Origin: Bacillus sp. REN16
GTDB taxonomy: Bacteria; Bacillota; Bacilli; Bacillales; Bacillaceae_L
Length of the DNA: 64,000 nucleotides
Assembly (NCBI RefSeq): GCF_020731355.1
Contig: NZ_JAJFZK010000008.1
Location: 1 to 64,000, forward strand
Reading direction: 5' to 3'
How positions within the stretch are numbered: position 1 is the first letter of the stretch; the number at the start of each line of letters is the position of its first letter. Below the pieces are notes generated by a model. That model made no database searches. It was not told the origin of the DNA and saw only the letters and a program-made list of their open reading frames with translations. Below, in pieces: positions 15,455-35,005 of the stretch. A program made the position numbers and the translations under genes.

Positions 15455-17176
15455 TTATACCAACACAAAATGCCCAGGCTTTATTTCCTGCATTTCATTT
15501 TGACTGAAATCAAAACGAGGCATTTCCGGCATTTCTTGCTTTAGTTTAATCGTCTCGACTGCTGGGTCCGGAACGGGAATGGTCGCGATCAGCGATTTCG
15601 TGTACGGATGAAGCGGGTCGCTGTAAAGCTCTTCACTTTCGGCAAGTTCAATAATTTTTCCCGAATTCATAACTGCCACCCGGTCGCTGATGTGTTTGAC
15701 CATTGAAAGATCATGAGCGATAAATAAGTAGGTTAGCCCTAACTTTTTCTGCAAATCTTTTAATAAGTCCACGATTTGAGCCTGCAAGGATACATCCAAT
15801 GCAGATAACGGTTCATCACATACAATGAATTTCGGGTTCACTGCAAGCGCCCGAGCGATTCCGATCCGTTGTCGTTGACCGCCTGAAAATTCATGAGGGA
15901 ATCGGTCCGCATGTTCTTTTTCTAAACCTACAAGCTCTAATAACTCCTCAACCCGAGCCTTCCGTTCTGCTTTGCTTTTCACTAATTTATGAATATCCAA
16001 GGAATGTCCGATAATGTCCAGTACCTTCATACGCGGGTTTAGTGAAGCATAAGGATCTTGGAAAATAATTTGAATTTCTTTGCGCAATTGTTTCAGTTGT
16101 TTCTTATTTAAACGATTAATCGCCATTCCCTTATAAAGAATTTCGCCTTCAGTTGCATCTTGCAACCGCAATAGCAATCTTCCTGTTGTCGATTTTCCGG
16201 ATCCGGATTCGCCAACGAGCCCAAGTGTTTCACCTGGCTGTATCGAAAAACTAATCGAGTCTACAGCCTTTAATGTTTTTCCGCCGCCGAGCGGATAGAC
16301 TTGTCTTAATTTCCTAACCTCAATTAACGGACGGTCCGGATTGATATCTTCTGGCAGGTCAATCTCACCCTTAGGCGGTTTCTTTTCATCTAACCGAGGC
16401 AGGGCGTTCAAAAGCTTCTTTGTATAGGGATGAGTTGGTGAGGAGAAAATCTTCTCCGTGGTATTTCTTTCGACGATTTCGCCTTTTTTCATGACCACAA
16501 CCCGGTCACACATCCCAGCAACGACGCCTAAATCATGGGTGATTAAGATAATGGATGTGCCGAATTGCTTTTGCATTTTTTTCATTAAACGTAAAATCTG
16601 CGCCTGAATTGTTACGTCGAGTGCAGTCGTCGGTTCATCGGCAATCAATAGCTTTGGCCGGCATGCGAGTGCCATGGCAATCATGGCCCGTTGCCTCATT
16701 CCCCCTGAAAACTCATGCGGGTATTGATTGTATCGCTCTCCGGGATTTTTTATCCCGACTAATTGCAACATTTCAATCGACTCTTGTTTGGCCTCTTTTG
16801 CTGAAAGACCTTGATGTTTGATTAAAACTTCATCGATTTGTTTCCCGACTTTAATCGTCGGATTTAATGAAGACATCGGATCCTGGAAAATCATACTGAT
16901 TTCTTTTCCGCGGATTTTTTCCATTTCACTATCTGTAAAAGTAGAGATCGGTTTGCCATCAAATTCAATGGAGCCTTCTGTCATTAATGCGGGTGGAGAA
17001 GGGAGCAGCTGCATGATCGACCTTGCAGTTACACTTTTCCCGGAACCGGATTCTCCCACAATACCAAGTGTTTCCCCTTTGCGAACATCAAATGTAACTC
17101 CTTTGACGGCTTCGAATACTTCATTATTAGATAGGAAAGAGATATGCACATTGTTGACTGTTAATAATTTTTCCAT
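15455..17176 (-). CDS. Fused double ATP-binding subunit of peptide-type ABC importer
   Basis: 573 residues containing two complete ABC domains in one chain, equal to a DppD-DppF fusion. Each has Walker A (GESGSGKSVTA and GESGSGKSTTG), a signature motif (FSGGMRQRAMIA and [12 protein letters not shown]) and Walker B ([12 protein letters not shown] and FIVCDEPLSALD). It powers import by the permeases encoded divergently at 17334-20270. The start ATG at 17174-17176 has GAGG about 8 bases upstream. The gene is transcribed away from the rest of the transporter, sharing a 157-base intergenic region. It is shorter than the fused ATPase at 32981, lacking the Cys-rich oligopeptide C-terminal extensions. 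Confidence 0.92.
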   Translation of the reverse strand: MEKLLTVNNVHISFLSNNEVFEAVKGVTFDVRKGETLGIVGESGSGKSVTARSIMQLLPSPPALMTEGSIEFDGKPISTFTDSEMEKIRGKEISMIFQDPMSSLNPTIKVGKQIDEVLIKHQGLSAKEAKQESIEMLQLVGIKNPGERYNQYPHEFSGGMRQRAMIAMALACRPKLLIADEPTTALDVTIQAQILRLMKKMQKQFGTSIILITHDLGVVAGMCDRVVVMKKGEIVERNTTEKIFSSPTHPYTKKLLNALPRLDEKKPPKGEIDLPEDINPDRPLIEVRKLRQVYPLGGGKTLKAVDSISFSIQPGETLGLVGESGSGKSTTGRLLLRLQDATEGEILYKGMAINRLNKKQLKQLRKEIQIIFQDPYASLNPRMKVLDIIGHSLDIHKLVKSKAERKARVEELLELVGLEKEHADRFPHEFSGGQRQRIGIARALAVNPKFIVCDEPLSALDVSLQAQIVDLLKDLQKKLGLTYLFIAHDLSMVKHISDRVAVMNSGKIIELAESEELYSDPLHPYTKSLIATIPVPDPAVETIKLKQEMPEMPRFDFSQNEMQEIKPGHFVLV

Positions 17177-17252: not shown

Positions 17253-17333
17253 TTATTTTTGTTACAGGTTTTAATATACACTAAACCACTAGGATTAATC
17301 AATGATAAAGATTTCCGAAGAGGGGGGGATTAT

Positions 17334-18764
17334 TTGCTTTCAGAAAAGGTTCAAACAAATGAACAAACACGGTTTAGTTTTGAAAAATATTATCTTGGAA
17401 TTATTACCCAACCTTCATTAAAGTACGTATTTATCTTACTGGGACTTCCTGTTCATTTGGTGACATGGCTATTTTATCAATTTAAATATAAAAATTCATC
17501 CTATAAGCAGCACCTCCAAAAGGAGAAAGAAGCGATTCAACAATCATCTGTATACGGTACATGGACCCGGCGTTATGAAGATCAATACAAAAGCAAAATG
17601 CACTATTTTAATAAACCAATAGTTGAAAAAGAGATGCGTGACGAGGCTAGTAAGCTTGCAGATGAACAAGCTGAGGAAATGGCTAAAGCTTCTTTGTCAG
17701 AGAAAAACATCAAAGATTCTACGTATCTGCAATTCTTTGGCGAGTGTTTACATAAACCAACCTTTGTTTGGTTTAGTTTTATTCCGGGTATTCTGATGTA
17801 TTTGTTCCTATGGATCTATTCCAAAATGATTCTTCGCTATATCTTTGAACGGCTGGTGATGACGATTTTCGTTATTGTATCAGTAGCAATCTTCGTCTTT
17901 ACAATCTTATATTTTTCACCATCAGACCCGGCTGCGAACATTTTAGGTGAAGCCGCTACGATGGAACAGCGAGCTGAATTTAATCATCAATATGGTTTAG
18001 ATCAGCCGTATTTGGTACAGCTTGCAAATGCTGTAAAAGGAATTATCACCTTTGATTTAGGATTTTCCTATACAGGTAATGAAGATATCGCAGCAAGTAT
18101 TGCGAATAAATTCCCGATTACTTTAATAATTGCTGTATTCTCCTTGGTGATGGCTATCGTCTTGGCGATACCAATCGGAATTATTTCTGCCGCGAAACGG
18201 AATTCCATCTGGGATTATAGTTTTATGTTTATCGCACTAATTGGTTTGTCGATTCCTAACTTCTGGCAAGGTTTAGTTTTTATACTGAACTTCTCCATTA
18301 AATGGAACTTGTTGCCGGCAACCTATTCACCGGGAGATTGGCTATCTGTTATTATGCCGGTGATTGTCCTTGGTACAGGATTGACGGCATCGATTGCTCG
18401 GATGACACGTTCATCGATACTTGAAGTGATTAATGAAGACTACATTGTGACAGCGAAGGCGAAGGGGCTTAGCCCTAGAAAAATTCTAATCCAGCATGCT
18501 CTAAGGAATGCAATGATACCCATCATTACTGTGATGGGTTTACAGTTTGGCGGAATGCTCGGCGGCGCTGCTGTTACTGAGAAGGTCTTCAATATTAGCG
18601 GTCTAGGAAGCTATATCGTTGATAAACAATTTGTTCCGGACATTCCATCGATTTTAGGTGGGGTTGTCTACATTGCCATTACCATTTCTCTTGTAAACCT
18701 TGTGGTTGATATTATCTATGCATTATTGAATCCGAGAATTCGTTCTCAAATGAAAAGTTCTTAA
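17334..18764 (+). CDS. ABC importer permease 1 (DppB-type) with N-terminal extension
   Basis: About 476 residues from TTG 17334, preceded by AGAGGGGGGG at 17319-17328; an in-frame frame opening at 17259 lies at the promoter and is rejected. Residues 166-476 match DppB/OppB permeases, including the EAA-type loop TAKAKGLSPRKILIQHALRN. Residues 1-165 are additional: one membrane segment (about 31-50), a charged helical soluble part (about 55-140, DEASKLADEQAEEMAK), and a second membrane segment (about 144-164). The canonical homologue at 31099 has no such part. It forms the membrane channel with the next gene product, 12 bases downstream. Confidence 0.88.
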   Translation: MLSEKVQTNEQTRFSFEKYYLGIITQPSLKYVFILLGLPVHLVTWLFYQFKYKNSSYKQHLQKEKEAIQQSSVYGTWTRRYEDQYKSKMHYFNKPIVEKEMRDEASKLADEQAEEMAKASLSEKNIKDSTYLQFFGECLHKPTFVWFSFIPGILMYLFLWIYSKMILRYIFERLVMTIFVIVSVAIFVFTILYFSPSDPAANILGEAATMEQRAEFNHQYGLDQPYLVQLANAVKGIITFDLGFSYTGNEDIAASIANKFPITLIIAVFSLVMAIVLAIPIGIISAAKRNSIWDYSFMFIALIGLSIPNFWQGLVFILNFSIKWNLLPATYSPGDWLSVIMPVIVLGTGLTASIARMTRSSILEVINEDYIVTAKAKGLSPRKILIQHALRNAMIPIITVMGLQFGGMLGGAAVTEKVFNISGLGSYIVDKQFVPDIPSILGGVVYIAITISLVNLVVDIIYALLNPRIRSQMKSS

Positions 18765-18776
18765 GAGGTGTTTGAA

Positions 18777-20270
18777 ATGACGACACAACAGGAGTTTGCA
18801 CTAAAACAATCACAAGTATTTAAGAATGCTAGTTTTTCCTTGTTTCTTTCGTTCGCATTATCAATCATCTTTTTCTTTAATGCTTATGATTTCGCGGAAG
18901 GGACCTGGAGTTTAATCTGGGGAATCGTAACGGCTGCCTATTTCTTTACCTCAATCTTACAAGGAGCCATTGTTCTTCTTATAAAAAAAGATTTATTGAC
19001 TTTTGGGGCGATACAGAAACGCACAAGACTCTTGAGCGGTGTTCAGCTGATAAGTTTATTTGCGGGTAATGTATTTACCGCTGCATTTGCCTTCCGAATG
19101 TTGAAAAAGAGGGATTCGATTGAGTACACCCTTGCGTACTATATGTTCTTGACGCAGTTTGTTATTTTTGCTATTTCCTTGTTCAATTTGTTTAAGCCAT
19201 ATGTGTCCAATCTATTCATCCCTTCTATGACCCTATTAATCCTGGCGATGGTCATTGAATTCATTTTAATCATTATCCTTTCGCGTACAGATGTTGAGCA
19301 GGGTGTGAAGCCACTATTGAAATGGCTAGGGGTTATTATCTTTTTGATTGGATTCACCGGTAACTTTTTTGGTTTGATTTTGGGGTATAGCTTAGTGATG
19401 AAGTCAATCAGCAGCAATGCTTCGACGATTGATAAATGGAATAAGTTCTGGATAAGCATGACGAACAATTTTACGGCTATGCTCGGATTTTTATTCGTAT
19501 TTTTGATGTTTGCTCTATCGATTGCTAGCTACGGAACTTTTGTTAGTTCCTTTTCCACAGATAACGACTATAACGCACTGCTTTTAGAGCCAAGCCTTGC
19601 ACATCCATTTGGTACCGATAATTTCGGGAGAGATGTCTTTTCTCGAATCGTTTTCGGTGCACGGATATCCTTGATTGTCGGCTTGCTTACGACATTGATT
19701 CCCCTTGTAATTGGCGGATTTTTAGGAGCAATCTCGGGGTACTATCAAAAATCGGTTGATAACATCATCATGCGTTTACTTGATGTGTTATATGCCGTGC
19801 CAGGTATCTTGCTGGCAATTGCAATCATTGCAGCATTTGGTTCAAGTACATTTAACTTAATCCTCGCGTTAAGTGTAGGATCGATACCAACCTATGCAAG
19901 AACAATGAGGGCGAATGTATTGATGGTTTCAAATTTGGAATATGTGGAGGCTGCCAAAGCATTAGGGGAAAATGAATGGAAAATTATTTTTAAACAGATT
20001 GTTCCGAATGCATTTGCCCCAATGATTGTGAAAGCTTCGTTAACCATCGGTGGTGCGGTTATTGCAACAAGCTCGTTAAGCTTCTTAGGCTTAGGTGTGG
20101 AACCGCATATTCCTGAATGGGGAAATATTTTAAAGATCGGCAGTATGTACTTAGAAACCAATCCGTATTTAGCCATTTTCCCGGGGATAGCCATTATTCT
20201 TTTGGTTCTTTCCTTTAACTTCCTGGGGGATGGTTTACGAGATGCATTGGATCCGAAGTTAGATGTGTAG
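18777..20270 (+). CDS. ABC importer permease 2 (DppC-type) with long membrane extension
   Basis: About 497 residues from ATG 18777 (AAGAGGTG lies 8 bases upstream). Residues from about 230 on match DppC/OppC permeases: HPFGTDNFGRDVFSRIVFGAR and the EAA loop EAAKALGENEWKIIFKQI. Residues 1-225 are extra and contain roughly six or seven hydrophobic segments (about 20-36, 43-70, 90-106, 117-137, 146-168, 183-208), nearly doubling the membrane domain. The canonical DppC homologue at 32066 has only 298 residues. The extension may form an accessory membrane domain; I do not recognise it as a named family. Confidence 0.88.
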   Translation: MTTQQEFALKQSQVFKNASFSLFLSFALSIIFFFNAYDFAEGTWSLIWGIVTAAYFFTSILQGAIVLLIKKDLLTFGAIQKRTRLLSGVQLISLFAGNVFTAAFAFRMLKKRDSIEYTLAYYMFLTQFVIFAISLFNLFKPYVSNLFIPSMTLLILAMVIEFILIIILSRTDVEQGVKPLLKWLGVIIFLIGFTGNFFGLILGYSLVMKSISSNASTIDKWNKFWISMTNNFTAMLGFLFVFLMFALSIASYGTFVSSFSTDNDYNALLLEPSLAHPFGTDNFGRDVFSRIVFGARISLIVGLLTTLIPLVIGGFLGAISGYYQKSVDNIIMRLLDVLYAVPGILLAIAIIAAFGSSTFNLILALSVGSIPTYARTMRANVLMVSNLEYVEAAKALGENEWKIIFKQIVPNAFAPMIVKASLTIGGAVIATSSLSFLGLGVEPHIPEWGNILKIGSMYLETNPYLAIFPGIAIILLVLSFNFLGDGLRDALDPKLDV

Positions 20271-20324: not shown

Positions 20325-22118
20325 ATGAAGAAATTAGGTATTTTACTTGTAGCATTGATGTTTTTTGTTACAGGCTGTGTTCAAACTGAAAAAGATGTTA
20401 AAGATGATGCTACATCAGATCCAAAAGCGAAAGCACCAACGATTGAAATTTTAGGAATGGCTACTGGCGAAGATAGTATGAACATCTTACGCGACCAGCT
20501 GACTAAAAATGGTTTTGAAGTAAAACTAAATATCCAACCAGATTACGGCAGCTTTACAGCTCAAAAAGAAGCGGGTAACTACGATCTATCTGTAAATAGC
20601 TGGACAACTGTAACAGGAAACCCTGATTACGCTGTTCGTTCATTATTTACTACTGACGGTGACAATAGCTTATTTGCTGATGAAAAGGCTGACGAATTGG
20701 TTGAAAAAGCTGCTACACAATTACCTGAAGAATATCAAGAAACATACAAAGAATTAGAACAACACGTAGTTTTAGACAATGCGTATATCGTACCGCTATT
20801 CACTTCATATAAAGCGCAAGCAGTGAACAGCCAGGTAGTGGATGAATCAACTGTCCGCTTACCAAAATCAAGAGCACAAGTTTGGGAAAAATATGACTTC
20901 GTGGACCAATCCAAACGCGATAGCCAGCCATTGATTGTTCATCAGTCCATAAGTTCTTTAACATCTTTAGATCCAATCAAAGGGAATGACGGTTCAATTA
21001 ATACGTTAAATACAAATATGTATGTTCGTTTAGTTAACTTAACTGACGATGACAAGGTTGTTTCTGATGGTTCACTATCTTTAAATCACGCAATTGCTGA
21101 AGGAAGCGAAGACTACTACTTCTTACTGCGCGATGATATTCATTTCGCGTCTGTTACCGACAACCAAGCAGTGGATACAGGTGAACTTGTTGGTGCAGAA
21201 GATGTTGTATTCTCACTAAATCGTGCGAAGGATGCAAAATCTGTTCCAGACCATCGTACTTACAGTCTTCATGAAAACATGGAATCTATCTCAATCGTTA
21301 GTGATTTAAGCGAACTAGATGGTAAAACAGCAGATGGTAAAACCATTCTTGAGGCATTAGAAAATGGTATTGACGGAGAAATTAAAGAATTAGCTACTGA
21401 TAAAACAAAAGTAAATAATGATTCTGGTACGTACCAAGTCGTTAAAATAACAACTGTGAACCCATTCCCGCAAGTATTGAACTATCTGGCTCACCAATCT
21501 GCTGGTATTGTTTCACAAAAACAAGTGGAAAGCATCAATACGTATGATGTAGCAAGCTTTGATATTAATAAAGATATCCCTTATGGTGATCAAAGAACTG
21601 TAACAGAAGGTGCAACATACGACAATCACCTTTTTGCAAGCGGGCCATATATTTTAACGTATAAAAATGATTATGAAGCTCATTTTGTAAAAAATCCTGC
21701 TTACATGACAGGTACTGAAAATGAACCAAAGGTTTCTGAAATTGTAGTGAAATTCATCCAAGATGCGGACAGTGCATTATCTGCTTTACGTAACGGCGAA
21801 ATCCATATCTTGAATGGTGTTCCTGAAACTAAATATGATCTTGTAAATGAAGACGAAAAATTAACGCTTCAACAAAACGAGAGTAACGGGGTTTCATATC
21901 TTGCCTTCAACATGAATGGACGCGAAGTTTCTAAGAGTGCGGAATTACGTAAATCCATTCTATTCTCTGTAAATCAAGATGAATTCATTAGCTTCTACCA
22001 AGGAAACAAAATGAAGGCTGTTTCAACTGTCAGTCCTTTAGTAGACACTGGATTAGAAGTAGTTGCAGACAGTGCAAAAGCGAAAGAATTCCTAAATGAA
22101 TATTTGAGCAATAAATAA
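20325..22118 (+). CDS. Circularly permuted family 5 substrate-binding lipoprotein
   Basis: 597 residues with a lipoprotein signal (lipobox VTGC, Cys at 18). Residues 38-190 match the part of family 5 peptide-binding proteins that normally comes last: PTIEILGMATGEDSMNIL, GNYDLSVNSW, GNPDYAVRSLFTTDGDNS, DNAYIVPLF. Residues 200-597 match the part that normally comes first: SISSLTSLDPIKGND, LVGAEDVVFSLNRAKDAKS, then FASGPYILTYKNDYEAHFVKN, ending at ADSAKAKEFLNEYL, exactly where canonical proteins continue into the segment found here at the N-terminus. It is tethered outside the cell and delivers a peptide-like ligand to the extended permeases. Confidence 0.85.
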   Translation: MKKLGILLVALMFFVTGCVQTEKDVKDDATSDPKAKAPTIEILGMATGEDSMNILRDQLTKNGFEVKLNIQPDYGSFTAQKEAGNYDLSVNSWTTVTGNPDYAVRSLFTTDGDNSLFADEKADELVEKAATQLPEEYQETYKELEQHVVLDNAYIVPLFTSYKAQAVNSQVVDESTVRLPKSRAQVWEKYDFVDQSKRDSQPLIVHQSISSLTSLDPIKGNDGSINTLNTNMYVRLVNLTDDDKVVSDGSLSLNHAIAEGSEDYYFLLRDDIHFASVTDNQAVDTGELVGAEDVVFSLNRAKDAKSVPDHRTYSLHENMESISIVSDLSELDGKTADGKTILEALENGIDGEIKELATDKTKVNNDSGTYQVVKITTVNPFPQVLNYLAHQSAGIVSQKQVESINTYDVASFDINKDIPYGDQRTVTEGATYDNHLFASGPYILTYKNDYEAHFVKNPAYMTGTENEPKVSEIVVKFIQDADSALSALRNGEIHILNGVPETKYDLVNEDEKLTLQQNESNGVSYLAFNMNGREVSKSAELRKSILFSVNQDEFISFYQGNKMKAVSTVSPLVDTGLEVVADSAKAKEFLNEYLSNK

Positions 22119-22298: not shown

Positions 22299-22398
22299 AT
22301 TTTACAGTTTATGATTTTTCGCTGTAAATTAACATGTATATTTGCATTGTTATTTTTCAGCATATAACATATACTACTTACATAAGGGGATGATGACT

Positions 22399-22644
22399 TT
22401 GACAAATATTAAACCGGTTTCCGATTTAAGAAATTATACAGAAGTGCTTAATGAAGTTGCAGAGGGGAGTCCAGTTTATTTAACCAGAAATGGACGAGGA
22501 GAATATGCAATAGTAAAACTTGAAGAATTAGATAAATTGAAAGCGGCAGTCAATTTGTTGGCAAAATTGGAAGTTGGGGAGAAATTAGCTAGAGAACAAG
22601 GATGGTTGTCGGCAAATGATGTTGAAGATAGGTTAGGGTTATAA
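22399..22644 (+). CDS. Phd/YefM-family antitoxin
   Basis: About 81 residues, reading MTNIKPVSDLRNYTEVL, the standard Phd/YefM N-terminus that binds DNA, followed by VYLTRNGRGEYAIVKLEEL. The start is probably TTG 22399, because AAGGGG (22384-22389) lies 9 bases upstream; the ATGs at 22390 and 22393 would be too close to it. The C-terminal third is the toxin-neutralising tail. It is followed after 3 bases by the toxin gene, and such antitoxins repress their own operon. Confidence 0.85.
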   Translation: MTNIKPVSDLRNYTEVLNEVAEGSPVYLTRNGRGEYAIVKLEELDKLKAAVNLLAKLEVGEKLAREQGWLSANDVEDRLGL

Positions 22645-22647
22645 ATT

Positions 22648-22977
22648 ATGCTAAAGGTTAAATACTCCCCGGCAGCACTAGAAGATTTACAACAGATCCG
22701 GGATTATATATTGGATAATTGGGGAGAAAGTGTTGCAACTAAGGTATTGAAAAAGATTACATCTGATATTAGAAGACTAGAACAATATCCTTTATCAGGC
22801 GTTGATTTAGGAAAGATTATTGATGTTCCAACAGAATACCGGTACTTATTTTCTGAAAAGAATTATGTTTTTTTTCGTATTGAGTTGGATATCATTCGAA
22901 TTGTACGTGTGCTAAATGAACGGCAGAATTACATGCAACAATTGTTTGGAATTAGTTCCGAATCTAAAGATAATTAA
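22648..22977 (+). CDS. RelE/ParE-family toxin
   Basis: 109 residues with the ParE/RelE pattern: YSPAALEDLQQIRDYI helix, then TEYRYLFSEKNYVFFRIE and IIRIVRVLNERQNYM strands. The proteins act as mRNA interferases (RelE) or gyrase poisons (ParE); the long helix with LEDLQQIRDYI favours the ParE side but does not settle it. It is translationally coupled to the antitoxin (3-base gap). The pair is flanked on both sides by copies of the same palindromic repeat, which end transcription around it. Confidence 0.85.
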   Translation: MLKVKYSPAALEDLQQIRDYILDNWGESVATKVLKKITSDIRRLEQYPLSGVDLGKIIDVPTEYRYLFSEKNYVFFRIELDIIRIVRVLNERQNYMQQLFGISSESKDN

Positions 22978-24425: not shown

Positions 24426-24483
24426 CTAATTACTGAATTATAATAAAAGTAATGAATTGCATAAAAACCATATAGTTTTACTT

Positions 24484-24655
24484 TCTTATCAAGAGAAGTG
24501 GAGGGACTGGCCCTTTGAAGCTTCGGCAACAGGCTTTTTTTTAAAGTACTGTGCTAATTCCAACAAGCATGTTAATTGCTTGGAAGATAAGGAGAGAAAT
24601 GGACTAATTTCGTTCTTAACCTCTTCTTATTTTAAAGAAGAGGTTTTTGTTTGTT
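24484..24655 (+). promoter_or_regulatory. SAM-I (S-box) riboswitch with terminator
   Basis: The aptamer follows the S-box consensus: TCTTATCAAGAG at the 5' side of P1, GTGGAGGGACTGGCCC, GAAGCTTCGGCAACAGGC, GTGCTAATTCCAACAAGCA, and GGAAGATAAGGAGAG closing P1 (24583-24595). The expression platform is the terminator AACCTCTTCTT / AAGAAGAGGTT (24618-24645) with TTTGTTTGTTTTT. When SAM is bound, the terminator forms and the downstream sulfur/methionine genes are silenced. It lies 150 bases before the sulfhydrylase gene. Confidence 0.95.
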
Positions 24656-24686
24656 TTTATTTAAATATTAAAGCCGATTAGACGAC

Positions 24687-24733
24687 TAAAGGCAGCTATT
24701 CACCAAATGATTGGGGAATGCTGTCTTTTTTTG
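24687..24733 (+). terminator. Second leader hairpin with T-run
   Basis: AAAGGCAGCTATTC pairs with GAATGCTGTCTTT, followed by TTTTTG. It lies between the riboswitch terminator and the gene, and may be a second attenuator or a backup. Confidence 0.6.
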
Positions 24734-24804
24734 TTGAAAAGGGGGGAGATCAAAAGGTTGAAGGCTTGGTTTTCTAATAAAAGTAGGTAAAGGAGTATAA
24801 GAAA

Positions 24805-26121
24805 ATGACGAATAATGAGCATTTGAATGAGTTTGGATTTAATACAGTTTCTCTTCACGGGGGACAAAAGCCTGACCCAGTTACACGATCTAGAGCAGTT
24901 CCAATCTACCAGACAACATCGTATGTGTTCGATGATACAGATCATGCTGCCGCCCTGTTCAAGATGCAGGGGGAAGGGTACATCTATTCAAGAAATGCTA
25001 ATCCGACAAATTCTGTGTTCGAAGAAAGAATAGCTCAACTTGAAGGAGGAGTGGGAGCCTTTGCTGTCTCATCAGGGCAAGCTGCTGTAACCATTGCATT
25101 ACTTACATTAGCGAAAGCAGGAGATGAAATCGTAGCGACAAGTGCATTGTATGGGGGGACCTATACATTATTCTCAGAGACCTTTCGAAACTTTGGAGTT
25201 ACCGTACATTTTATTGACGGAAGAAGCTTTGAAAAAATCGAGCAGACAATAAATGCAAATACGAAAGCCATCTTCACAGAATCGATTGGAAATCCAAACT
25301 TAGAAATTGCTGATTTAGAGAAGCTAAGCGAGATTGCTCATAGAAACGGTATTCCATTGGTAGTCGATAATACATTTGCGACTCCCGTATTACTAAAACC
25401 GATTGAGTATGGTGCAGATATTGTTGTTCATTCCGCTACAAAATATATCGGTGGTCATGGGACCTCCATTGGGGGTGTGATTATAGATGCCGGAAAATTC
25501 CCTTGGGGAAATGGAAGATTTACTGATTTTACGAAGGTAAAACCCACTTTAAATAATCGTTCCTTTGTTGAAGCAGCCCAAGAGAAAGCATATATTGCAA
25601 AAGTCCGGTTTGAACTTGGTCATGATTTAGGAGCAACGCTTTCCCCTTTTAACAGCTGGCTGTTTATTCAAGGATTAGAATCTTTGCCGGTAAGAATGGA
25701 GAAACATGTTCGTAATGCACAAAAGGTTGCAGAATATTTATCTAATCATGAATTAGTGGACTGGGTGAACTTCCCAAGCTTTCCCCATGATCCTCAATAT
25801 GGGCTGGCAACAAAATATTTACCAAATGGGATAGGGGCAATTTTTACATTTGGTGTAGAGGGTGGTTTGGAAGTTGCAAAGGTATTTATCAATTCCTTAA
25901 AGTTACTTTCACATGTAGCGAATATCGGTGACTCCAAAACACTCATTATTCACCCTGCAAGCACAACACATTCAAGATTATCTCCTGAGGAACAGCTGCA
26001 AGCGGGGGTTACTCCAGAGTTGATCCGTATATCGATTGGATTAGAGGATGTACAGGATATTTTTGCCGATATTGATCAAGCATTGCAAATTAGCAGTCGA
26101 TTAACAAGTGTCCAAAGGTAA
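24805..26121 (+). CDS. metY: O-acetylhomoserine sulfhydrylase (MetY type)
   Basis: 438 residues, the usual size of O-acetylhomoserine aminocarboxypropyltransferase, a PLP enzyme that makes homocysteine from O-acetylhomoserine and sulfide. HSATKYIGGHGTSIGG contains the PLP Lys, YSRNANPTNSVFEERIAQLEGG and AVSSGQAAVT the cofactor pocket, and the C-terminal SKTLIIHPASTTHSRLSPEEQ block is typical of the family. AAAGGAG lies 11 bases upstream of the ATG. The gene is the first behind the SAM riboswitch and is therefore off when SAM is plentiful. Confidence 0.93.
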   Translation: MTNNEHLNEFGFNTVSLHGGQKPDPVTRSRAVPIYQTTSYVFDDTDHAAALFKMQGEGYIYSRNANPTNSVFEERIAQLEGGVGAFAVSSGQAAVTIALLTLAKAGDEIVATSALYGGTYTLFSETFRNFGVTVHFIDGRSFEKIEQTINANTKAIFTESIGNPNLEIADLEKLSEIAHRNGIPLVVDNTFATPVLLKPIEYGADIVVHSATKYIGGHGTSIGGVIIDAGKFPWGNGRFTDFTKVKPTLNNRSFVEAAQEKAYIAKVRFELGHDLGATLSPFNSWLFIQGLESLPVRMEKHVRNAQKVAEYLSNHELVDWVNFPSFPHDPQYGLATKYLPNGIGAIFTFGVEGGLEVAKVFINSLKLLSHVANIGDSKTLIIHPASTTHSRLSPEEQLQAGVTPELIRISIGLEDVQDIFADIDQALQISSRLTSVQR

Positions 26122-26183
26122 GATTTTTTAGATATAACCAAGTAAATCTATGTGAATAAAAATGAAAATGAAGGAGAGTTAAA

Positions 26184-26549
26184 ATGCTAATAGCCGTTGT
26201 TATTGACAAAACAGAAAATATTGTCCCGATTGTAGAGGGCCAGAAAGTTAGAATCTACAATACGGAAACGAGTGAGTATCAGGAATTTCCAAATCCAGCT
26301 CTTGAATTACAAGAAGGACGAAGGGGGGCTGCCTTAAAATTTGCCGAACAAAAAGGTGCTGCCGCATTTGCTGCACCACCTCAGACATTTTGTGAATTGT
26401 CTTATGAAAAAGCGTTAGCGAATCAAATAAAGTTTTTCCACTTACCTTCTGTTATTTCATTTAGTCAGTTTACAGAGCAAGTAAATAAGAGGGTAATTGA
26501 AGTTCAGGAAACACTTCCTAGCGATGAGATTGCACCTAGTTTTGTTTAA
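26184..26549 (+). CDS. Small protein of the sulfur operon, unknown family
   Basis: 121 residues, soluble, opening MLIAVVIDKTENIVPIVEG with EGQKVRIYNTET, a beta-strand pattern that recalls the NifX/NifB-type cofactor-binding fold, but no diagnostic Cys or His cluster is present (one Cys, in TFCELSYEKAL). AAGGAGAG precedes the ATG. It sits between the sulfhydrylase and two flavin monooxygenases under the same riboswitch, so a role in sulfur handling is likely from context only. Confidence 0.65.
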   Translation: MLIAVVIDKTENIVPIVEGQKVRIYNTETSEYQEFPNPALELQEGRRGAALKFAEQKGAAAFAAPPQTFCELSYEKALANQIKFFHLPSVISFSQFTEQVNKRVIEVQETLPSDEIAPSFV

Positions 26550-26592
26550 GTAGAAAAAAGTAACCTGCATAGTTAAAAGGAGTGATTATCAA

Positions 26593-27924
26593 TTGAGTTT
26601 ACAAAAAATGAATTTGGGACTTTTCTTAATGGGTACGGGTCATCATATAGTTTCATGGAGACATCAAAATGTACCCGGAAAATCTGCTATAAGTATTAAG
26701 TTTTATCAGGAAATAGCAAGCATTGCGGAGAAGGGTAAGTTGGATATGCTTTTCTTGAGTGATGGATTATCGTTTGACAAACATTCACATCCTGCGGAGC
26801 TAGTAAGATTTGAACCATTCACTTTGCTGGGAGCATTATCTGTCGTGACCAAACATATAGGTTTGGCTGCGACAGCAACCACAACGTATAATGAACCCTT
26901 TCATATCGCACGAAAGTTTCTATCTCTTGATCACCTGAGTGAAGGGAGATCAGCATGGAATGTGGTTACCTCTTATTATCAAACAGAAGCAAGAAACTTT
27001 ACTAAGAAGCAGCATCTTGATCACAGTATCCGATATAAGCGAGCAGAGGAATTTGTGAATGTAGTGAAGGGCCTTTGGGATAGCTGGGAAGAGGATGCAT
27101 TCCTATCTGATAAGGAATCAGGACAATACTTTGATGATAGTAAGTTGCATGGATTACATCATCATGGTGAGTTCTTCTCGGTAGAGGGACCATTAAATTC
27201 ATCCCGTTCGCCACAAGGAAGGCCAGTTATCATTCAAGCGGGATCATCAGAAGAGGGTATTAATCTCGCAGCGAAAACAGCTGATGTCATATTTACAGCA
27301 CAACAAACACTTGAGGGTGCACAGGATTTCTATAAAAAGGTAAAGGAAAAGGCTATTCAATATGGGCGCTCTTCAGAGGATATAAAAATCATGCCGGGAC
27401 TATCAATTTATACAGGAAGAACAAGGGAAGAAGCGGAAGGAAAGTATCATCAACTTCAGGATTTAATCACTCCAGAAGTGGGGTTACAAATCCTTTCTGA
27501 ATACCTAGGGGACTTTGATTTATCGCCTTACCCATTAGATGGTCCATTGCCGTCAAATATTCCTGAAACAAATATGAACAAGAGTAGAAGAAAGCTGTTA
27601 ATCGAGCTCGCTGAAAGAGAAAGTATGACGATTAGAGAATTGTCTAAACATGTAGCTGGTTCTAGAGGTCATCGAATTATATTTGGGGACCCACAGCAAA
27701 TTGCAGACCAAATGGAGGAATGGTTTGTAAATAAAGCAGCAGATGGATTCAACCTGATGCTGTCACAATTCCCTGATAGCCTAACAGATTTCGTTGAATT
27801 AGTGGTTCCAGAACTTCAGAAACGAGGATTGTTTAGAGAAGAATATGAAGGTGTGACTTTAAGGGAGAATCTTGGATTGCGGGAGCCGGAATATCGATAT
27901 GCGAGAAGTGGCGTAGAGGTTTAG
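26593..27924 (+). CDS. FMN-dependent monooxygenase, NtaA/SnaA/DszA family (1)
   Basis: 443 residues of the bacterial luciferase-like (LLM) superfamily. FLMGTGHHIVSWRH, SLDHLSEGRSAWNVVTSY and GRPVIIQAGSSEEGINLAA are subgroup hallmarks for FMNH2-dependent enzymes related to DszA and NtaA that oxidise sulfur- or nitrogen-containing organics. TTG 26593 is chosen because AAAGGAG lies 9-10 bases upstream; no ATG does better. It needs a separate flavin reductase, which is not encoded nearby. Context (S-box control, ABC importer) suggests release of sulfite or sulfur from an organosulfur compound. Confidence 0.88.
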   Translation: MSLQKMNLGLFLMGTGHHIVSWRHQNVPGKSAISIKFYQEIASIAEKGKLDMLFLSDGLSFDKHSHPAELVRFEPFTLLGALSVVTKHIGLAATATTTYNEPFHIARKFLSLDHLSEGRSAWNVVTSYYQTEARNFTKKQHLDHSIRYKRAEEFVNVVKGLWDSWEEDAFLSDKESGQYFDDSKLHGLHHHGEFFSVEGPLNSSRSPQGRPVIIQAGSSEEGINLAAKTADVIFTAQQTLEGAQDFYKKVKEKAIQYGRSSEDIKIMPGLSIYTGRTREEAEGKYHQLQDLITPEVGLQILSEYLGDFDLSPYPLDGPLPSNIPETNMNKSRRKLLIELAERESMTIRELSKHVAGSRGHRIIFGDPQQIADQMEEWFVNKAADGFNLMLSQFPDSLTDFVELVVPELQKRGLFREEYEGVTLRENLGLREPEYRYARSGVEV

Positions 27925-28033
27925 GTCGTACTAAAAGGAAACACTTTAACATGATAGCCAAGTATTTAGATGCGAATAATTTAAATTTGCTAATTGTTGA
28001 TAAAGCAATTTCATAAATAGAGGAGGAGTTTCA

Positions 28034-29368
28034 ATGACTAAGGAAAGAAAATTAAAGTTGGGAGCTTGGATACACGGAGTTGGAGGTGGATGGGGAGATT
28101 GGAGGCATCCTGATTCCTTACCAAATGCAAGCACCAATTTTGAGTTCTATAAGCAACAGGCTCAAAAGGCCGAAGAAGGAAAGTTAGACTTTGTTTTTAT
28201 TGCTGACAGTGTTTCTATTAATGAAAATTCCAGTCCGCATTATTTGAATAGATTTGAACCAGTTACCGTTTTGTCTTCTCTTGCAGCCGTAACAAATCAC
28301 ATCGGGTTAGTAGGCACTATTACTACGAGTTACAGCGAACCTTATACCGTTACTAGACAGCTTGCTTCTCTTGATCATATTAGCCATGGTAGGGCAGGCT
28401 GGAATGTAGTCACATCATGGCTTTCAGGAACTTCTGACAATTACAATAAGAAACCACATCCTCCTCATGATTTGCGTTACAAAATGGCACAGGAATACCT
28501 AGAAGTAGCTAAAGGGTTATGGGATTCGTGGGAAGATGATGCTTTTGTCTATGATAAAGAGTCTGGAGTCTTTTTTGACAAAGAGAAACTTCATACGTTA
28601 AATCATGAGGGAGAGTTCTTTTCAGTTAAAGGACCATTAAATATCGCACGTTCCAAACAAGGTCAGCCTGTTATTTTCCAAGCCGGTAAATCAGAAGTAG
28701 GAAGAGATTTTGCAGCACGAAACGCAAATGTGATTTTTGCAGGGGAAGGAACGGATATTGAGGAATCCAAAGAATATTTTGCCGATGTAAAACAAAGGGC
28801 TCGTGGGTTTGGAAGAAATCCAAACCAGGTTTCCCTTCTGCCAGGGATTATTCCGATTATTGGTGATACGCAGGAAGAAGCGGATCGCAAGCATCAAGAA
28901 ATTGCAAATCTAGTCTCTATAGATAAAGCACTTAATGCACTAGGTAGACCATTTGATGATCATGATTTTACTCAATATCCACTTGATGAGCCATTTCCTG
29001 ATCTAGGGAGTTTAGGAAGCAATAGTCATCAAGGTATGTCCGACATAATTAAAAGAAATGCGAAGGAGAAAAATTTAACGTTGCGTCAAGTGGCACTGGA
29101 CTTTGCTACACCGAAGGGAAGATTTGTTGGAACTCCGGAAAAAGTAGCAGATCTTATCCAGCGATGGTTTGAGGAAGAAGCATCTGATGGATTTATCATT
29201 GGGGCAGCAACACCGAAAGGACTGCCTGAGTTCGTAGATCGTGTTGTGCCTATTTTGCAAGAACGTGGAATATATAGAACAGAGTATGAGCATGACACTT
29301 TAAGAGGAAATTTAGGATTAGAAATACCTGAAAATCGGAACGCTAGAAAGCCAGTTCAACAGTTGTGA
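28034..29368 (+). CDS. FMN-dependent monooxygenase, NtaA/SnaA/DszA family (2)
   Basis: 444 residues, clearly a paralogue of the preceding enzyme: [41 protein letters not shown] and [19 protein letters not shown] align block by block. The two may act on successive intermediates, or on different substrates, or form a heteromer; the sequence does not decide. AGAGGAGG precedes the ATG. It is followed by a binding-lipoprotein gene, making the pair part of an uptake-and-oxidation unit. Confidence 0.88.
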
Positions 29369-29434
29369 GCAAAGTAAGTAAGATAGAACATTACGTACTT
29401 TAGACAAAGCTAGTATAGAGAAGAGGGAAATTTT

Positions 29435-31075
29435 GTGAAGAAGTTATATATACAAATATTTATCATTTTAATCGCATTTAGTGTTCTTCTAGCAGGATGT
29501 TCGAATACTGAATCAAATAATGATGAAGCTAGTGGAGCGGCTGCTGAGGGTGAGATAACACCCGGGGGAGAATTGAAATGGGCACTTGCTGGTACCGTAA
29601 CACAAGACAATCTTGATGCTCATAAATCATTGAATGCACAAAATGGTCGGGTTATGAGATCACTTTATGATAGTTTGGTAGTTGAACTAGAGGATGGAAC
29701 CATTAAACCATGGCTGGCTACCTCATGGGAGATTTCAGCCGATAACAAAAGCTATTTATTCAAGCTTCGAGAAGATGTAACTTTCCATGATGGGACGCCA
29801 TTCAATGCTGAAGCAGTTAAATTTAATTTTGAAAGAATTAAAGATCCGGCAACAAAATCTACTAATTCATTAAATGCGATCGGTCCTTTTGAGTCGGCAG
29901 AAGTAATTGATGAGTTTACAGTGAAAATTAATTTTTCTACACCCTTTGCACCATTTTTAAGTAATGCTGCTAAGGCCGATTTAGGAATGGTATCCCCTGC
30001 TGCAGTTGAAAAATTTGGTGACGCCTTTCCACAAAATCCAGTAGGTACAGGTCCATTTAAATTAGAAAAATTCACTCTAGGAACACAGGTTGAACTAGTA
30101 AAAAATGAGGACTATAATTGGGCACCCGAAAATGCTGGACATCAGGGACCAGCATATCTTGATAAAATTACCATTCAATTTGTACCAGAAGAAGCGACTC
30201 GTGTTGGGGTCTTACAAAGCAAACAAGTACACGTGGCTGATATTATTCCACCTCAAAATTTAGTTGCACTAAAAAAGGATAATCAATTTAATGTTATTGA
30301 AACTGAATTGAAACAAATAAATTTTTCATTATATTTAAATCCAAGTAGAAAACCATGGGATGACGTAAAAGTGAGGAAAGCGGTACGATCAGCTCTTAAT
30401 ATTAAATCCGCAGTAGACACTATATATTTAGGCACTTCAGAACAGGCTTGGTCACCGCTTACAAAAACAATGTTTTCTTACACTGAAACTGTAGAAAACT
30501 CTTGGAAACAAGATTTAGAAGAAACAAGCAAACTACTCCAGGAAACAGGCTGGAAAAAAGGGTCTGATGGTTTATGGGAAAAAGATGGAAAACCTTTAAC
30601 CATAGATTTAATTGATACTCAAGGTAACCGTGAAAAACGAATTGATTTAATCACAGTGTTTCAACAGCAGCTAAAACAAGCAGGTATTCAATTAAACATC
30701 GTTTCATTATCAGCAGGTGCTTATGATGAACGAAGATTTAATGGTGAATACGATATGTTTGCTTCCAGTCAATTTTACGGGGATCCAGATGTTATGAGAT
30801 CGATCTTTTCAACAAAAGGGCCTTATGGGTTAGCAACACCTTCACGAGTTAACGTACCTGAACTCGATGAATGGTTAGAACAGGGGTATTTAGAACAGGA
30901 TCCAGAAAAACGCAAAGAAATATATACAAAAGTACAAGAATATATCATTGAAAATGTATATTCTATCCCTACTTATTTATTCCAGTACTCAATTGCAACA
31001 GTAAAAGAAGTAAAAGGAATTCGATTCCATTCTCCAGCATTTCCTGATTTTTATGATGCTTGGATTCAACAATAA
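29435..31075 (+). CDS. Family 5 substrate-binding lipoprotein (canonical order)
   Basis: 546 residues with a lipoprotein signal (LLAGC, Cys about residue 22). Domain order is the normal one: LKWALAGTVTQDNLDAHKSL and FHDGTPFNAEAVKFNFERIK at the N-terminus, NPVGTGPFKLEKF in the middle, EYDMFASSQFYGDPDVMRS near the end. It starts with GTG 29435 after AGAGGGA. It binds the substrate, probably a peptide- or organosulfur-type compound given the monooxygenase neighbours, outside the membrane. It is the useful in-window reference for the permuted protein at 20325. Confidence 0.92.
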   Translation: MKKLYIQIFIILIAFSVLLAGCSNTESNNDEASGAAAEGEITPGGELKWALAGTVTQDNLDAHKSLNAQNGRVMRSLYDSLVVELEDGTIKPWLATSWEISADNKSYLFKLREDVTFHDGTPFNAEAVKFNFERIKDPATKSTNSLNAIGPFESAEVIDEFTVKINFSTPFAPFLSNAAKADLGMVSPAAVEKFGDAFPQNPVGTGPFKLEKFTLGTQVELVKNEDYNWAPENAGHQGPAYLDKITIQFVPEEATRVGVLQSKQVHVADIIPPQNLVALKKDNQFNVIETELKQINFSLYLNPSRKPWDDVKVRKAVRSALNIKSAVDTIYLGTSEQAWSPLTKTMFSYTETVENSWKQDLEETSKLLQETGWKKGSDGLWEKDGKPLTIDLIDTQGNREKRIDLITVFQQQLKQAGIQLNIVSLSAGAYDERRFNGEYDMFASSQFYGDPDVMRSIFSTKGPYGLATPSRVNVPELDEWLEQGYLEQDPEKRKEIYTKVQEYIIENVYSIPTYLFQYSIATVKEVKGIRFHSPAFPDFYDAWIQQ

Positions 31076-31098
31076 CAATCACTAAAGGAGTCTTAGGT

Positions 31099-32028
31099 AT
31101 GCTTAAATTTGTATTAAGAAGAATATTAGTATCCCTTCTTGTCGTCCTGGGCTCAGTAACATTAGTATTTTTTCTCCTCCATATATTACCGGGTGATTCT
31201 GCCCGGATGGTTGGAGGAGAAAATATGAGCGAAGAGAGAGTTGCCGAATTACAGACAAGATTGGGCTTAGACCGCCCAGTTAATGAGCAATATGCTGATT
31301 ATATAAAAGGTTTGGTGACTTTCAATTTAGGTGAGTCATTTGTGGATAATCAGCCAGTGATTAATAAGCTTATGGTGAATATTCCCGCCACTATATCTTT
31401 AACTCTAGGAAGTGGGTTTATAGCAATAATTATAGGTGTCGTATTTGGAGTACTATCAGCTATTTACCAAAATCGATGGCTGGATTATATTGTTCGAGTT
31501 ATAGGGCTTTTTAGCATTTCTATGCCGACATTTTGGCTTGGAATACTTCTTATACTTATCTTTTCCATTAATTTAAATTGGTTTCCAGCTATTGGGAATG
31601 GTAGTTTTAAACAGTTAGTTTTGCCAGCCCTCTGTTTGGGTATAACCCAATCTGGTTTATTAACAAGAATCATACGGAATAGTGTTCTAGAAATTATTAA
31701 TGAACAGTTTGTCTCAACACTTAGGGCCAAAGGTTTATCGGAAAAAATAGTTATGTATAAGCATGTCTTACGCAATGCACTTTTACCAGGAATAACAGTT
31801 CTAGGAATTTTAATTGGGGATTTACTCGCTGGCTCTGTCGTGACAGAAACTGTTTTTTCTAGACAAGGAATTGGAAGAGTTGTAGTTGATGCAATCAATC
31901 AAAAAGATATTCCTATGATTCAAGGTGTTATTTTAGTTGCGGCAATTATGTACGTTCTTGTTAATTTCATTGTTGATCTTTCTTATGCCTACATCGATCC
32001 TAGATTACGAAAATCTACTATTAAATAA
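31099..32028 (+). CDS. ABC importer permease, DppB type
   Basis: 309 residues from ATG 31099, with AAAGGAG about 8 bases upstream; an earlier in-frame TTG at 31060 overlaps the lipoprotein gene and is rejected. Six membrane segments and the conserved features LGLDRPVNEQYADYIKGLVT, SMPTFWLGILLILIF and the EAA loop STLRAKGLSEKIVMYKHVLRN identify it as DppB/OppB. It pairs with the next gene product. Standard family length, unlike the 476-residue homologue at 17334. Confidence 0.92.
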   Translation: MLKFVLRRILVSLLVVLGSVTLVFFLLHILPGDSARMVGGENMSEERVAELQTRLGLDRPVNEQYADYIKGLVTFNLGESFVDNQPVINKLMVNIPATISLTLGSGFIAIIIGVVFGVLSAIYQNRWLDYIVRVIGLFSISMPTFWLGILLILIFSINLNWFPAIGNGSFKQLVLPALCLGITQSGLLTRIIRNSVLEIINEQFVSTLRAKGLSEKIVMYKHVLRNALLPGITVLGILIGDLLAGSVVTETVFSRQGIGRVVVDAINQKDIPMIQGVILVAAIMYVLVNFIVDLSYAYIDPRLRKSTIK

Positions 32029-32065
32029 ATCTTGGAAAATATAAAACGTGTGAGGTGGTAATTGA

Positions 32066-32962
32066 ATGATTTCAAATTCGGGCACTGTTAGGGAGACTCT
32101 AACCCAGACTCTAAAAGAAAAGGATATTGGTTATAGAGCAAGACGTATAAAATGGTCAAAGGTAATCCTAATACTGTCCACGTTAATCATTGCCTTTATT
32201 GTTAGTTGTGCTCTATTTCCTCAATGGATTGCACCATACTCGCCCACTCAGATGAATACTCAATCCGTCATGCAGCCACCTAGTTTGTCCTATGTCTTGG
32301 GAACGGATCAATTTGGTCGTGACATTTTTAGTTTAATTGTTTATGGAGCAAGGCAGTCATTATTAACAGGTGTAGCATCCGTTGCATTAGGTGGTTTAGC
32401 AGGAACGATCATCGGCTTAATTGCCGGATATGCTGGTGGTATTATTGACACCATCTTTATGAGATTTATAGATATTCTGATGACTATTCCCAATATACTG
32501 TTAGCCATAGCTATTTCTTCAGCACTTGGTGCAAGTTTAGGAAATATCATTTTAGCAATTAGTGTTGCTTCCATTCCTGGATATTCTAGGGTTATAAGAA
32601 GCCAGGTTATTGCAGTAAAAAGCCGCCCTTTTGTTGATGCCTCCCGATCAATAGGAACATCACATTTAAACATTTTGTTCCGTCATATTTTTCCGAATTG
32701 TATTTCTCCATTACTTGTGATGGCTACAATAGGGGTCGGAACGAGCATTCTAATCGGAACAGGTCTTAGTTTTCTGGGACTAGGAGTAATCCAGGAAATA
32801 CCAGACTGGGGCTATATGCTTTCTCAAGGTCGAAGCTATATAACAGTAGCTTGGTGGATTGTTACATTTCCTGGGTTAGCCATTACCATTCTAGTTATTG
32901 CAGTGAATCTAATCGGAGATGAACTACGAAATCAACTAGATCCAAAGCATTCCAAAAATTAA
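32066..32962 (+). CDS. ABC importer permease, DppC type
   Basis: 298 residues of DppC/OppC type: LGTDQFGRDIFSLIVYGARQ, MRFIDILMTIPNILLAIAIS, and the EAA loop DASRSIGTSHLNILFRHIFPN. A soluble N-terminus of about 35 residues precedes the first membrane segment. GAGGTGG is 7 bases or more upstream of the ATG. It forms the transport channel with the 31099 product and is energised by the fused ATPase directly downstream. Confidence 0.92.
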   Translation: MISNSGTVRETLTQTLKEKDIGYRARRIKWSKVILILSTLIIAFIVSCALFPQWIAPYSPTQMNTQSVMQPPSLSYVLGTDQFGRDIFSLIVYGARQSLLTGVASVALGGLAGTIIGLIAGYAGGIIDTIFMRFIDILMTIPNILLAIAISSALGASLGNIILAISVASIPGYSRVIRSQVIAVKSRPFVDASRSIGTSHLNILFRHIFPNCISPLLVMATIGVGTSILIGTGLSFLGLGVIQEIPDWGYMLSQGRSYITVAWWIVTFPGLAITILVIAVNLIGDELRNQLDPKHSKN

Positions 32963-32986
32963 GAATTACGGGGAGGTGGGTTGGAA

Positions 32987-35005
32987 TTGAAACCACTCTT
33001 AAATGTTCAAGAACTATCGGTTGGATTTAAAACACAAAATGAAATGTTGAATGCTGTTAACAAGGTCAATTTGCAAGTAAATAAAGGTGAGATTGTTTGT
33101 TTGGTTGGTGAATCCGGAAGTGGAAAGACGATTACTTCTCTTTCCATCATGCGTCTAATTGATTTTAATAACGGAATTATTACTAATGGAGAAATCTTGT
33201 TGGAAGGGCAAAGCTTGGTTGGGATATCGCAGAAAAAAATGAGTGAGTTTCGGGGTAAAAAAATAGCAATGGTATTTCAAGAGCCTATGTCAGCCTTAGA
33301 TCCAGTGTTCACGATTGGTCATCAAATAACCGAGGTAATGCTTCATCATAACGGGGTGAGTAAGGAAGAAGCAACTGAAAAAGCAATAGAATTATTGCGA
33401 AGAGTTGGAATTCCTGAGCCAGAATTAAGAATGAAACAATATCCTTATGAATTATCAGGGGGAATGCTTCAGCGCGTTATGATTGCAATCGCACTAGCTT
33501 GCGGTCCTGAATTACTTATTGCAGATGAACCTACTACGGCACTAGATGTAACCACACAAGCACAAATTCTTGCATTGCTTCAGGAGTTAAAAGAGGAATT
33601 TAACATGTCCATTTTACTCATCACACATGACTTAGGAATTGCTGCTGAAATGGCTGATCGAATTGTTGTAATGTATTCTGCACAGGTTGTCGAGGAAGGA
33701 TCTGTTTTTCAGTTATTCGAACTTCCGCGTCATCCTTATACAAAGGGTTTGCTGCAATCCATTGTACCTTTAGATAGTGTACAAAGAAGCCGTTTGTACT
33801 CGATTGATGGTTCCATCCCGGCATTAGATAGTATACCAACTGGCTGTAGATTTCACCCTCGTTGTCCATATGCTACGGAAAAGTGTGCAATTGAAGAACC
33901 TCCATTAGTGGAGTATGAAGGTCATAAAGTCGCATGTTGGCATACTGAGAAAGTTGAATTATCAAAACCAAATAATGTAACCTCTGTTTCAGAAAATAAA
34001 AGCGAGTATAAAACATTGAGAGTACAAAATAACTCAGATGAAGATTCACTCATTGAAATTAAGGATCTTAAGAAGTACTTTCCAATTGAAAAAGGATTAT
34101 TAAATAGAAAGAAAAAATTTGTTCGTGCTGTAGATGATGTATCCTTCACCATTAAACAAGGGGAAACTTTCGGACTTGTTGGAGAATCTGGCTGTGGAAA
34201 ATCTACTTTAGGCCGTGTCATTTTGCAATTGGAAAAAGCTACAAACGGAAAAGTATTGTTCCAAGGTAGGAACTTGCTTGAATTAAATAAATCAGAATCA
34301 AAAAAAGCAAAGGCTGATATGCAAGTTGTTTTTCAAGATCCATATGGTTCAATCAATCCAAGATGGAAAGTTGGAGATGTAATAGGCGAACCACTTTGGG
34401 TACATCAATCATTGAAAGAGAAAGAAAAAAAAGAAAAAGTATTAGAAATCATGAAGTTAGTAGGACTTAATTCAAGCTGGTATGACAGGTTTCCAAATGA
34501 ATTCTCAGGTGGACAGAGGCAACGGATTGGAATTGCACGAGCGATCTCTTTAAATCCACAATTTATTGTTGCAGATGAGGCAGTTTCTGCACTGGATGTA
34601 TCTGTACAATCGCAAATAATTAATCTATTTCAAGAGCTCCAAGATAATCTTGGTTTAACCTATTTATTTATTGGTCACGGTTTAAATGTTGTCCGTCATA
34701 TTTCAAATAGGATTGGGGTTATGTATTTAGGGAAACTGGTAGAAATTGCACCAGCAGATGCGTTGTTTCTTCGTCCGGCACATCATTATACAAAGGCACT
34801 GTTAAACGCTATTCCAATTGCTGACCCAACGAAAAGAAGAGAAAGGATTACAATTAAGGGTGAAGTCCCATCCCCGGCCAATCCGCCATCTGGATGCCGT
34901 TTTCATCCTCGCTGTCCTGCTGCGACAGCACTTTGCAAGGAAATAGTACCAGAATTAAAAGTGATTAATTCGGAACATTTTGTTGCATGCCATTATCCAG
35001 TATAA
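32987..35005 (+). CDS. Fused DppD-DppF ATP-binding protein
   Basis: About 672 residues with two ABC domains: Walker [12 protein letters not shown] and [11 protein letters not shown], signatures [12 protein letters not shown] and [12 protein letters not shown], Walker [13 protein letters not shown] and [12 protein letters not shown]. Each half ends with the oligopeptide/dipeptide extension that carries a Cys cluster ([14 protein letters not shown] and [14 protein letters not shown]), typical of DppD/DppF with an iron-sulfur or structural role. The second Walker B reads ADEAVSALD and the switch region has GHGLN rather than the usual THDL, a conspicuous deviation. Start is TTG 32987 or 32981 after GGGGAGGTGG. 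Confidence 0.9.

Follow-up and report, generated by a model that had tools for sequence, protein, structure and literature searches.

A Probable Natural Circular Permutant of the Cluster C Binding-Protein Fold among GisD-like Lipoproteins of Bacilli

To our knowledge, whole receptors that are circularly permuted in nature are uncommon. Among the binding proteins of ABC transporters, such a permutation has been described in MglB-2 (Tp0684) of Treponema pallidum, coined "Cluster Bc", and the authors of its structure raised the possibility that this kind of topology is adaptive for tethering (PMC4990184). A search of the open-access literature for natural circular permutation in binding proteins, including SBP_bac_5/cluster C, returned only this cluster B case; permutation in cluster C is likely unreported, though this is not proven. 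In Staphylococcus aureus, GisABCD-Ggt (SAUSA300_0200-0204) has been characterized as a glutathione import system with a divergent gisA, and the use of both glutathione and glutathione disulfide by this organism depends on GisABCD (PMC10355420). Permutation is not mentioned in the GisABCD papers (PMC10355420; PMC12510641). For the canonical cluster C receptor DppA, residues R383 and D436 are known to bind the dipeptide termini, with D436 holding the amino group (PMC12136057).

The window, by which we mean the whole stretch of 64,000 nucleotides from Bacillus sp. REN16 that was analysed, carries an open reading frame of 597 codons at 20325-22118, opening with ATG at 20325 and preceded by GGAGG. 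The initial annotation, made from the letters alone, had proposed that the encoded lipoprotein is circularly permuted. Its features are as follows.

20325-22118, plus strand: permuted SBP_bac_5 lipoprotein (GisD-like), 597 aa, identified by Pfam, rotation, hhalign and orthologues.
20325-20378, plus strand: signal peptide and lipobox FVTG-C18, with C18 invariant in 49 sequences.
20439-20834, plus strand: residues 39-170, the counterpart of the canonical C-terminal part, which here comes first (PF00496 299-367; hhalign; VIA-align).
20835-20930, plus strand: joining stretch between the former termini, roughly residues 171-202, of constant length.
20931-22115, plus strand: residues 203-597, the counterpart of the canonical N-terminal and middle part, which here comes last (PF00496 19-275).

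PF00496 (SBP_bac_5) is the only Pfam family above cut-off for this protein, scoring 127.3 bits (E 1e-36) against a curated cut-off of 32.4 bits, which meets the similarity expected of an SBP_bac_5 protein; no Pfam match to a cluster B (sugar-binding) domain occurs in it. Residues 264-592 correspond to positions 19-275 of the PF00496 profile and residues 46-114 to positions 299-367, i.e., the order is reversed, and the two segments match separately with E values of 7e-31 for the C-terminal and 6.6e-7 for the N-terminal one. The paralogue at 29435-31075, which had been called canonical, indeed matches PF00496 1-359 in the normal order. When the permuted protein is artificially rotated, the two matches merge into a single stretch (residues 69-480 to profile 19-367) and the score rises to 137.8 bits compared with 127.3 for the native chain. 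The same behavior was seen in a control in which 33 canonical SBPs were compared with family profiles in native and in rotated order, where the native profile gave two main blocks in reversed order in all 33, and the rotated profile gave one block spanning the join in all 33, with a higher total score every time. The reversed PF00496 order is well above chance level.

In a profile-profile comparison with 28 canonical SBPs, hhalign matched residues 39-171 to canonical columns 384-523 at E 2.7e-17, and the C-terminal segment to columns 73-376 at E 4.8e-35. The breakpoint hence falls between columns 376 and 384, and since only about 7 columns separate the mapped blocks, nothing notable has been lost or duplicated. 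Homology to SBP_bac_5 covers nearly the whole chain (columns 73-376 plus 384-523 of 550), and because the parts do not stand in the order that SBP_bac_5/cluster C proteins have, we class the 597-aa protein as a permuted variant and not as an ordinary member. A phmmer search against solved structures gives the same reversal on Bacillus anthracis 5u4o, with residues 429-550 on 191-309 and residues 53-158 on 380-489. As for the boundaries, the initial annotation had assigned residues 38-190 to the C-terminal-type segment and put the start of the normal N-terminal lobe at about 205; the order stands, while the former segment extends from 39 only to about 170 and the lobe that is now last begins at about residue 200.

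Since no solved structure of any permuted-family member was found in the copy of the PDB that we searched, the connectivity of the fold rests on prediction and homology. An AlphaFold2 model of the full chain, built from an input alignment of only 49 orthologue rows, all at least 61% identical, reached pLDDT 83.2 and pTM 0.80. In structural alignments residues 201-597 of this model equal DppA 1-342 and residues 189-597 equal OppA 1-355, with Z about 20-21 (VIA-align aligned the C-terminal segment with SBP residues 1-343, Z about 21). The predicted joining stretch has pLDDT 80-97, and the spacing from P157 to T213, which brackets it, is 57 residues in 48 of 49 orthologues. Because Foldseek aligns chains sequentially, it recovers the fold only in part (TM about 0.45).

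The first segment deserves separate consideration, for it could in principle be an unrelated extra domain of 170 residues placed before a truncated SBP, and it does fold poorly when modelled alone (pLDDT 62, pTM 0.42). Within the whole chain it is predicted to be well folded, as expected of a part of one fold. Taken alone, it aligns weakly by VIA-align with DppA 343-477 (through residues 37-162) and OppA 358-484 (best Z 6.8, high rmsd), starting where the DppA and OppA alignments of the C-terminal segment end, and all 50 matches listed are C-terminal halves of SBPs of the same fold class. By themselves, with their high rmsd and low Z, these predicted-structure matches would be weak support; the hhalign match to exactly those canonical columns that would otherwise be missing and the phmmer match to 5u4o 380-489 leave the extra-domain reading with hardly any credence.

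The arrangement is not restricted to one genome. Orthologues number at least 80, counted as loci taken from genome contigs, and the 80 loci that were fetched, from more than 20 Bacillales genera, all code for an essentially full-length protein with the same order. Carriers include Fredinandcohnia, Neobacillus, Oceanobacillus, Viridibacillus, Psychrobacillus, Sporosarcina, Lysinibacillus, Ureibacillus, Kurthia, Saccharibacillus, the B. pumilus group, and others. One record titled Arthrobacter beigongshangensis (L066, NZ_JADHDX010000017.1) holds a typical Bacillales module with an SBP 67% identical, and is likely a misnomer, a contamination or a transfer. In an alignment of 49 rows, mean column identity is 71% and well over 100 invariant columns are spread across both parts. 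A misassembly, a frameshift fusion or a normal-order protein misread by us would have to recur in 80 independent genomes, with the Pfam order reversed and invariant columns on both sides of the join, and as nothing was found in its favor, we regard such an artefact as practically ruled out. The initial annotation had named three outcomes that would overturn it, namely a normal order on PF00496, a first segment unrelated to the C-terminal lobe, and the lack of orthologues of the same order together with evidence of misassembly; the reversed order, the hhalign and SBP C-terminal-half matches, and the at least 80 orthologues dispose of them in turn.

In phylogenetic trees the permuted SBPs form one clade with support 100/100 on a long branch, and a single ancient origin may therefore be offered as the simplest reading of the sequences. 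Presence is patchy even within the genus of the window (3 of 9). Among 399 Bacilli genomes searched with the rotated profile, intact family members scored 330-790 bits and no close sister of canonical order appeared above about 100 bits. Outside Bacilli, none was found in a 398-genome phylum sample, which is a sample only and does not prove absence. Genome G478 contains a decaying locus (L185, 6186-6830), in which only a C-terminal remnant of the permuted SBP of about 215 codons remains, without the permease C extension that is described below.

How such a protein arose is less certain. Tandem duplication of one gene followed by fusion and trimming would yield a strict permutation; alternatively, two neighboring paralogues could have been joined, so that the C-terminal part of one SBP was fused to the N-terminal part of a different one. 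The latter draws on a crosswise pattern of scores, in which the first segment reaches 51-56 bits versus the GsiB-like canonical group and 14-30 versus the DppA-like group, and the second segment 20-34 and 56-79 bits, respectively, and on the tandem canonical SBP genes that relatives carry on one strand. However, when each segment was given its own tree, the permuted clade stood apart from every sampled canonical group on a long branch in both, so that different ancestries are not demonstrated, and the first-segment scores could stem from a shared WTTVTG motif through ligand-site convergence. We consider a chimera of two paralogues unlikely and keep strict permutation as the default origin. Two open frames of more than 1,000 aa that looked like fused SBP intermediates proved to be adjacent separate canonical genes.

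The gene for the permuted SBP stands beside those of a complete transporter.

15455-17176, minus strand: fused double ATPase, GisA/OppDF-like, 573 aa, divergent (two ABC_tran and oligo_HPY; 49% to the GisA-like protein of L177, see below).
17334-18764, plus strand: permease B, GisB/OppB-like, about 476 aa (PF00528 and PF19300; syntenic in nearly all 80 loci).
18768-20270, plus strand: permease C, GisC/OppC-like, 500 aa, with a long N-terminal membrane extension (PF00528 at 316-499; 47% to the GisC-like protein of L177).
18768-19457, plus strand: hydrophobic extension at the N-terminus of permease C, about 230 aa, with the motif LNLFKPYVSD (alignment and genome profile matches).

The start codon of permease B is uncertain, its reading frame opening at 17259. 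The divergent double ATPase and permeases B and C adjoin the SBP in nearly all 80 loci, with L111 as an exception in which no separate permease B was seen, and no general conserved neighbor was found beyond these four genes in the orthologue loci. In locus L179 (8272-10232, genome G513), the ATPase is encoded by two genes that belong to the operon itself (B, C, D, F, SBP), in place of a fused divergent one. The extension of permease C precedes the usual domain and comprises several hydrophobic segments and a conserved motif, LNLFKPYV; the staphylococcal type has a shorter version. Pfam does not recognize the extension, PF00528 being the sole match in the window protein. A profile of this extension matches 34 of the 399 Bacilli genomes, and the intact permuted SBP is present in the same 34 and no others; one further genome, G478, has only the SBP remnant. 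This co-occurrence is complete in the sample but may reflect common descent of one operon, not function.

No regulatory RNA was found upstream of these genes, and scans for promoters and terminators gave sites no more frequent than in shuffled sequence. A Phd/YefM antitoxin and ParE toxin pair (22342-22977) lies directly downstream of the permuted SBP gene. The only riboswitch is elsewhere in the window, a SAM riboswitch (RF00162, 96.7 bits) at 24483-24593, upstream of a MetC/O-acetylhomoserine sulfhydrylase-like gene at 24805-26121, which is followed by two luciferase-like monooxygenases and then by a canonical SBP_bac_5 transporter at 29435-35005. The region 24483-35005 looks like a cluster for the uptake and use of sulfur compounds.

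The relation to the staphylococcal system can be followed gene by gene. An S. aureus record (L175, NZ_CP077929.1) contains the divergent fused ATPase, the two permeases and the start of a permuted SBP, 41% identical, which is cut after about 220 residues and begins with the C-terminal-type segment. The record, "plasmid unnamed2", is an inverted-repeat contig whose two arms carry the same genes; it is probably an artefact of chromosome assembly that was deposited as a plasmid. In a related genome (L177), the ATPase, permeases B and C, a full-length permuted SBP with two PF00496 stretches and the middle part last, and a 669-aa gamma-glutamyltranspeptidase follow in a row, and a second relative (L178) has the same row. 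L177 is 73-78% identical to S. aureus for ATPase and permeases and 75% for the SBP fragment, and 40-49% identical to the four proteins of the window, with 40% over 599 aligned positions for the SBP. The arrangement in L177 and L178 is that of gisABCD-ggt (PMC10355420). The window accordingly has the four orthologous transporter genes with a divergent gisA, and its permuted protein is, as judged from sequence, an orthologue of S. aureus GisD. As ggt is absent from the operon and from the entire window, the window system is termed GisABCD-like and not a full Gis-Ggt system.

What the receptor binds can only be inferred. The most likely ligand is glutathione, glutathione disulfide, or a related peptide that carries sulfur or a gamma-glutamyl group, given the orthology of all four genes to GisABCD at 40-49% in the same divergent arrangement. 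The genes SA0198-SA0201 are presumably those of the S. aureus gis operon. They are tabulated among the S. aureus genes that respond to sulfide stress (PMC5480029). None of the 80 non-staphylococcal loci, however, has ggt beside the permuted-SBP genes, and glutathione as a substrate outside Staphylococcus is therefore an extrapolation; the single PF01019 gene (ggt) of the window's own genome is unlinked, and an SBP identity of 40% is low enough for specificity to have changed. An ordinary oligopeptide or some other compound could thus be the ligand here, which we find conceivable but rather doubt. By phmmer alignment the counterpart of DppA D436, the dipeptide-binding Asp, is V96, which is invariant in 49 orthologues and is Val in the staphylococcal type too. 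Val at this position also occurs in some canonical SBPs; V96 would argue against DppA-like dipeptide capture, but it does not show glutathione binding.

Taken together, we think it highly probable that the protein is a naturally occurring circular permutant of the cluster C fold and an orthologue of GisD, with its anchor on the other lobe and a glutathione-type ligand. The sequence data demonstrate the reversed order, the single clade, the conservation, the conserved module of four genes and the orthology to GisD, whereas fold connectivity, the geometry of the anchor, the ligand and docking are inferences. Both chain ends of a canonical SBP lie in the N-lobe, and DppA 342/343 is in the C-lobe. 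In the ordinary order the chain thus starts and finishes in one lobe; in the permutant a short, conserved piece would bridge the former termini, and the new termini would lie in the other lobe, near DppA 342/343. With the breakpoint in the C-lobe and the canonical ends in the N-lobe, the lipid anchor is inferred to have moved, so that the exported protein, lipidated at C18, would be tethered on the lobe opposite to that of its ordinary relatives. Apart from connectivity, the predicted model is that of a normal Venus-flytrap receptor, whose lobes would close on the ligand; the receptor would dock on the two permeases, B and C, with import powered by the double ATPase. A further proposal, that a permuted class of cluster C binding proteins ("Cluster Cc") and the extended permease originated together, a single time, within Bacilli and are functionally linked through the moved anchor, and that the topology of GisD has gone unnoticed, is tentative, and we place it slightly short of an even chance. 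If true, the anchor shift alters the presentation of the receptor to the extended permease or its docking on it, and the best-studied member of "Cluster Cc" is the S. aureus glutathione receptor GisD.

The family adds an independent case of permutation, kept across many genera, in a very large family of peptide receptors, and one of its members, from a major pathogen, is under study as a nutrient receptor. It opens to testing the existing idea that a permutation shifts the position of the membrane anchor in tethered binding proteins. For GisD-like proteins, profile annotation and linear homology modelling can mislead, and the same proteins offer a natural template for permuted biosensors designed from the cluster C fold.

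In comparison with known systems, GisD of S. aureus shares with the window system the permuted order, the gene set and the divergent ATPase, and the difference from GisABCD-Ggt is that the window genes lack an adjacent ggt. The taxonomic spread found here is much wider than in the earlier survey, which required Ggt first (PMC10355420). The canonical proteins E. coli DppA (1dpe/1dpp), GsiB (1uqw) and OppA (1ola) and B. anthracis 5u4o are homologous over nearly the whole chain, including the predicted lobes; against these cluster C SBPs, the window family has its two parts in the other order, an insertion between the mapped blocks of about 70 residues beyond the PF00496 span, and, compared with DppA, the invariant V96 in place of D436. 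MglB-2, like the window protein, is a tethered lipoprotein with relatives in Gram-positive bacteria (PMC4990184). Unlike the window protein, it has a cluster B sugar-binding fold whose first strands have moved to the C-terminus, which is the opposite move, and its permuted part is only 13% identical to its counterpart (PMC4990184), whereas both parts of the window protein align significantly. MglB-2 is thus the closest precedent, though in a different fold class, and the window family is a second, independent case of a tethered permuted receptor.
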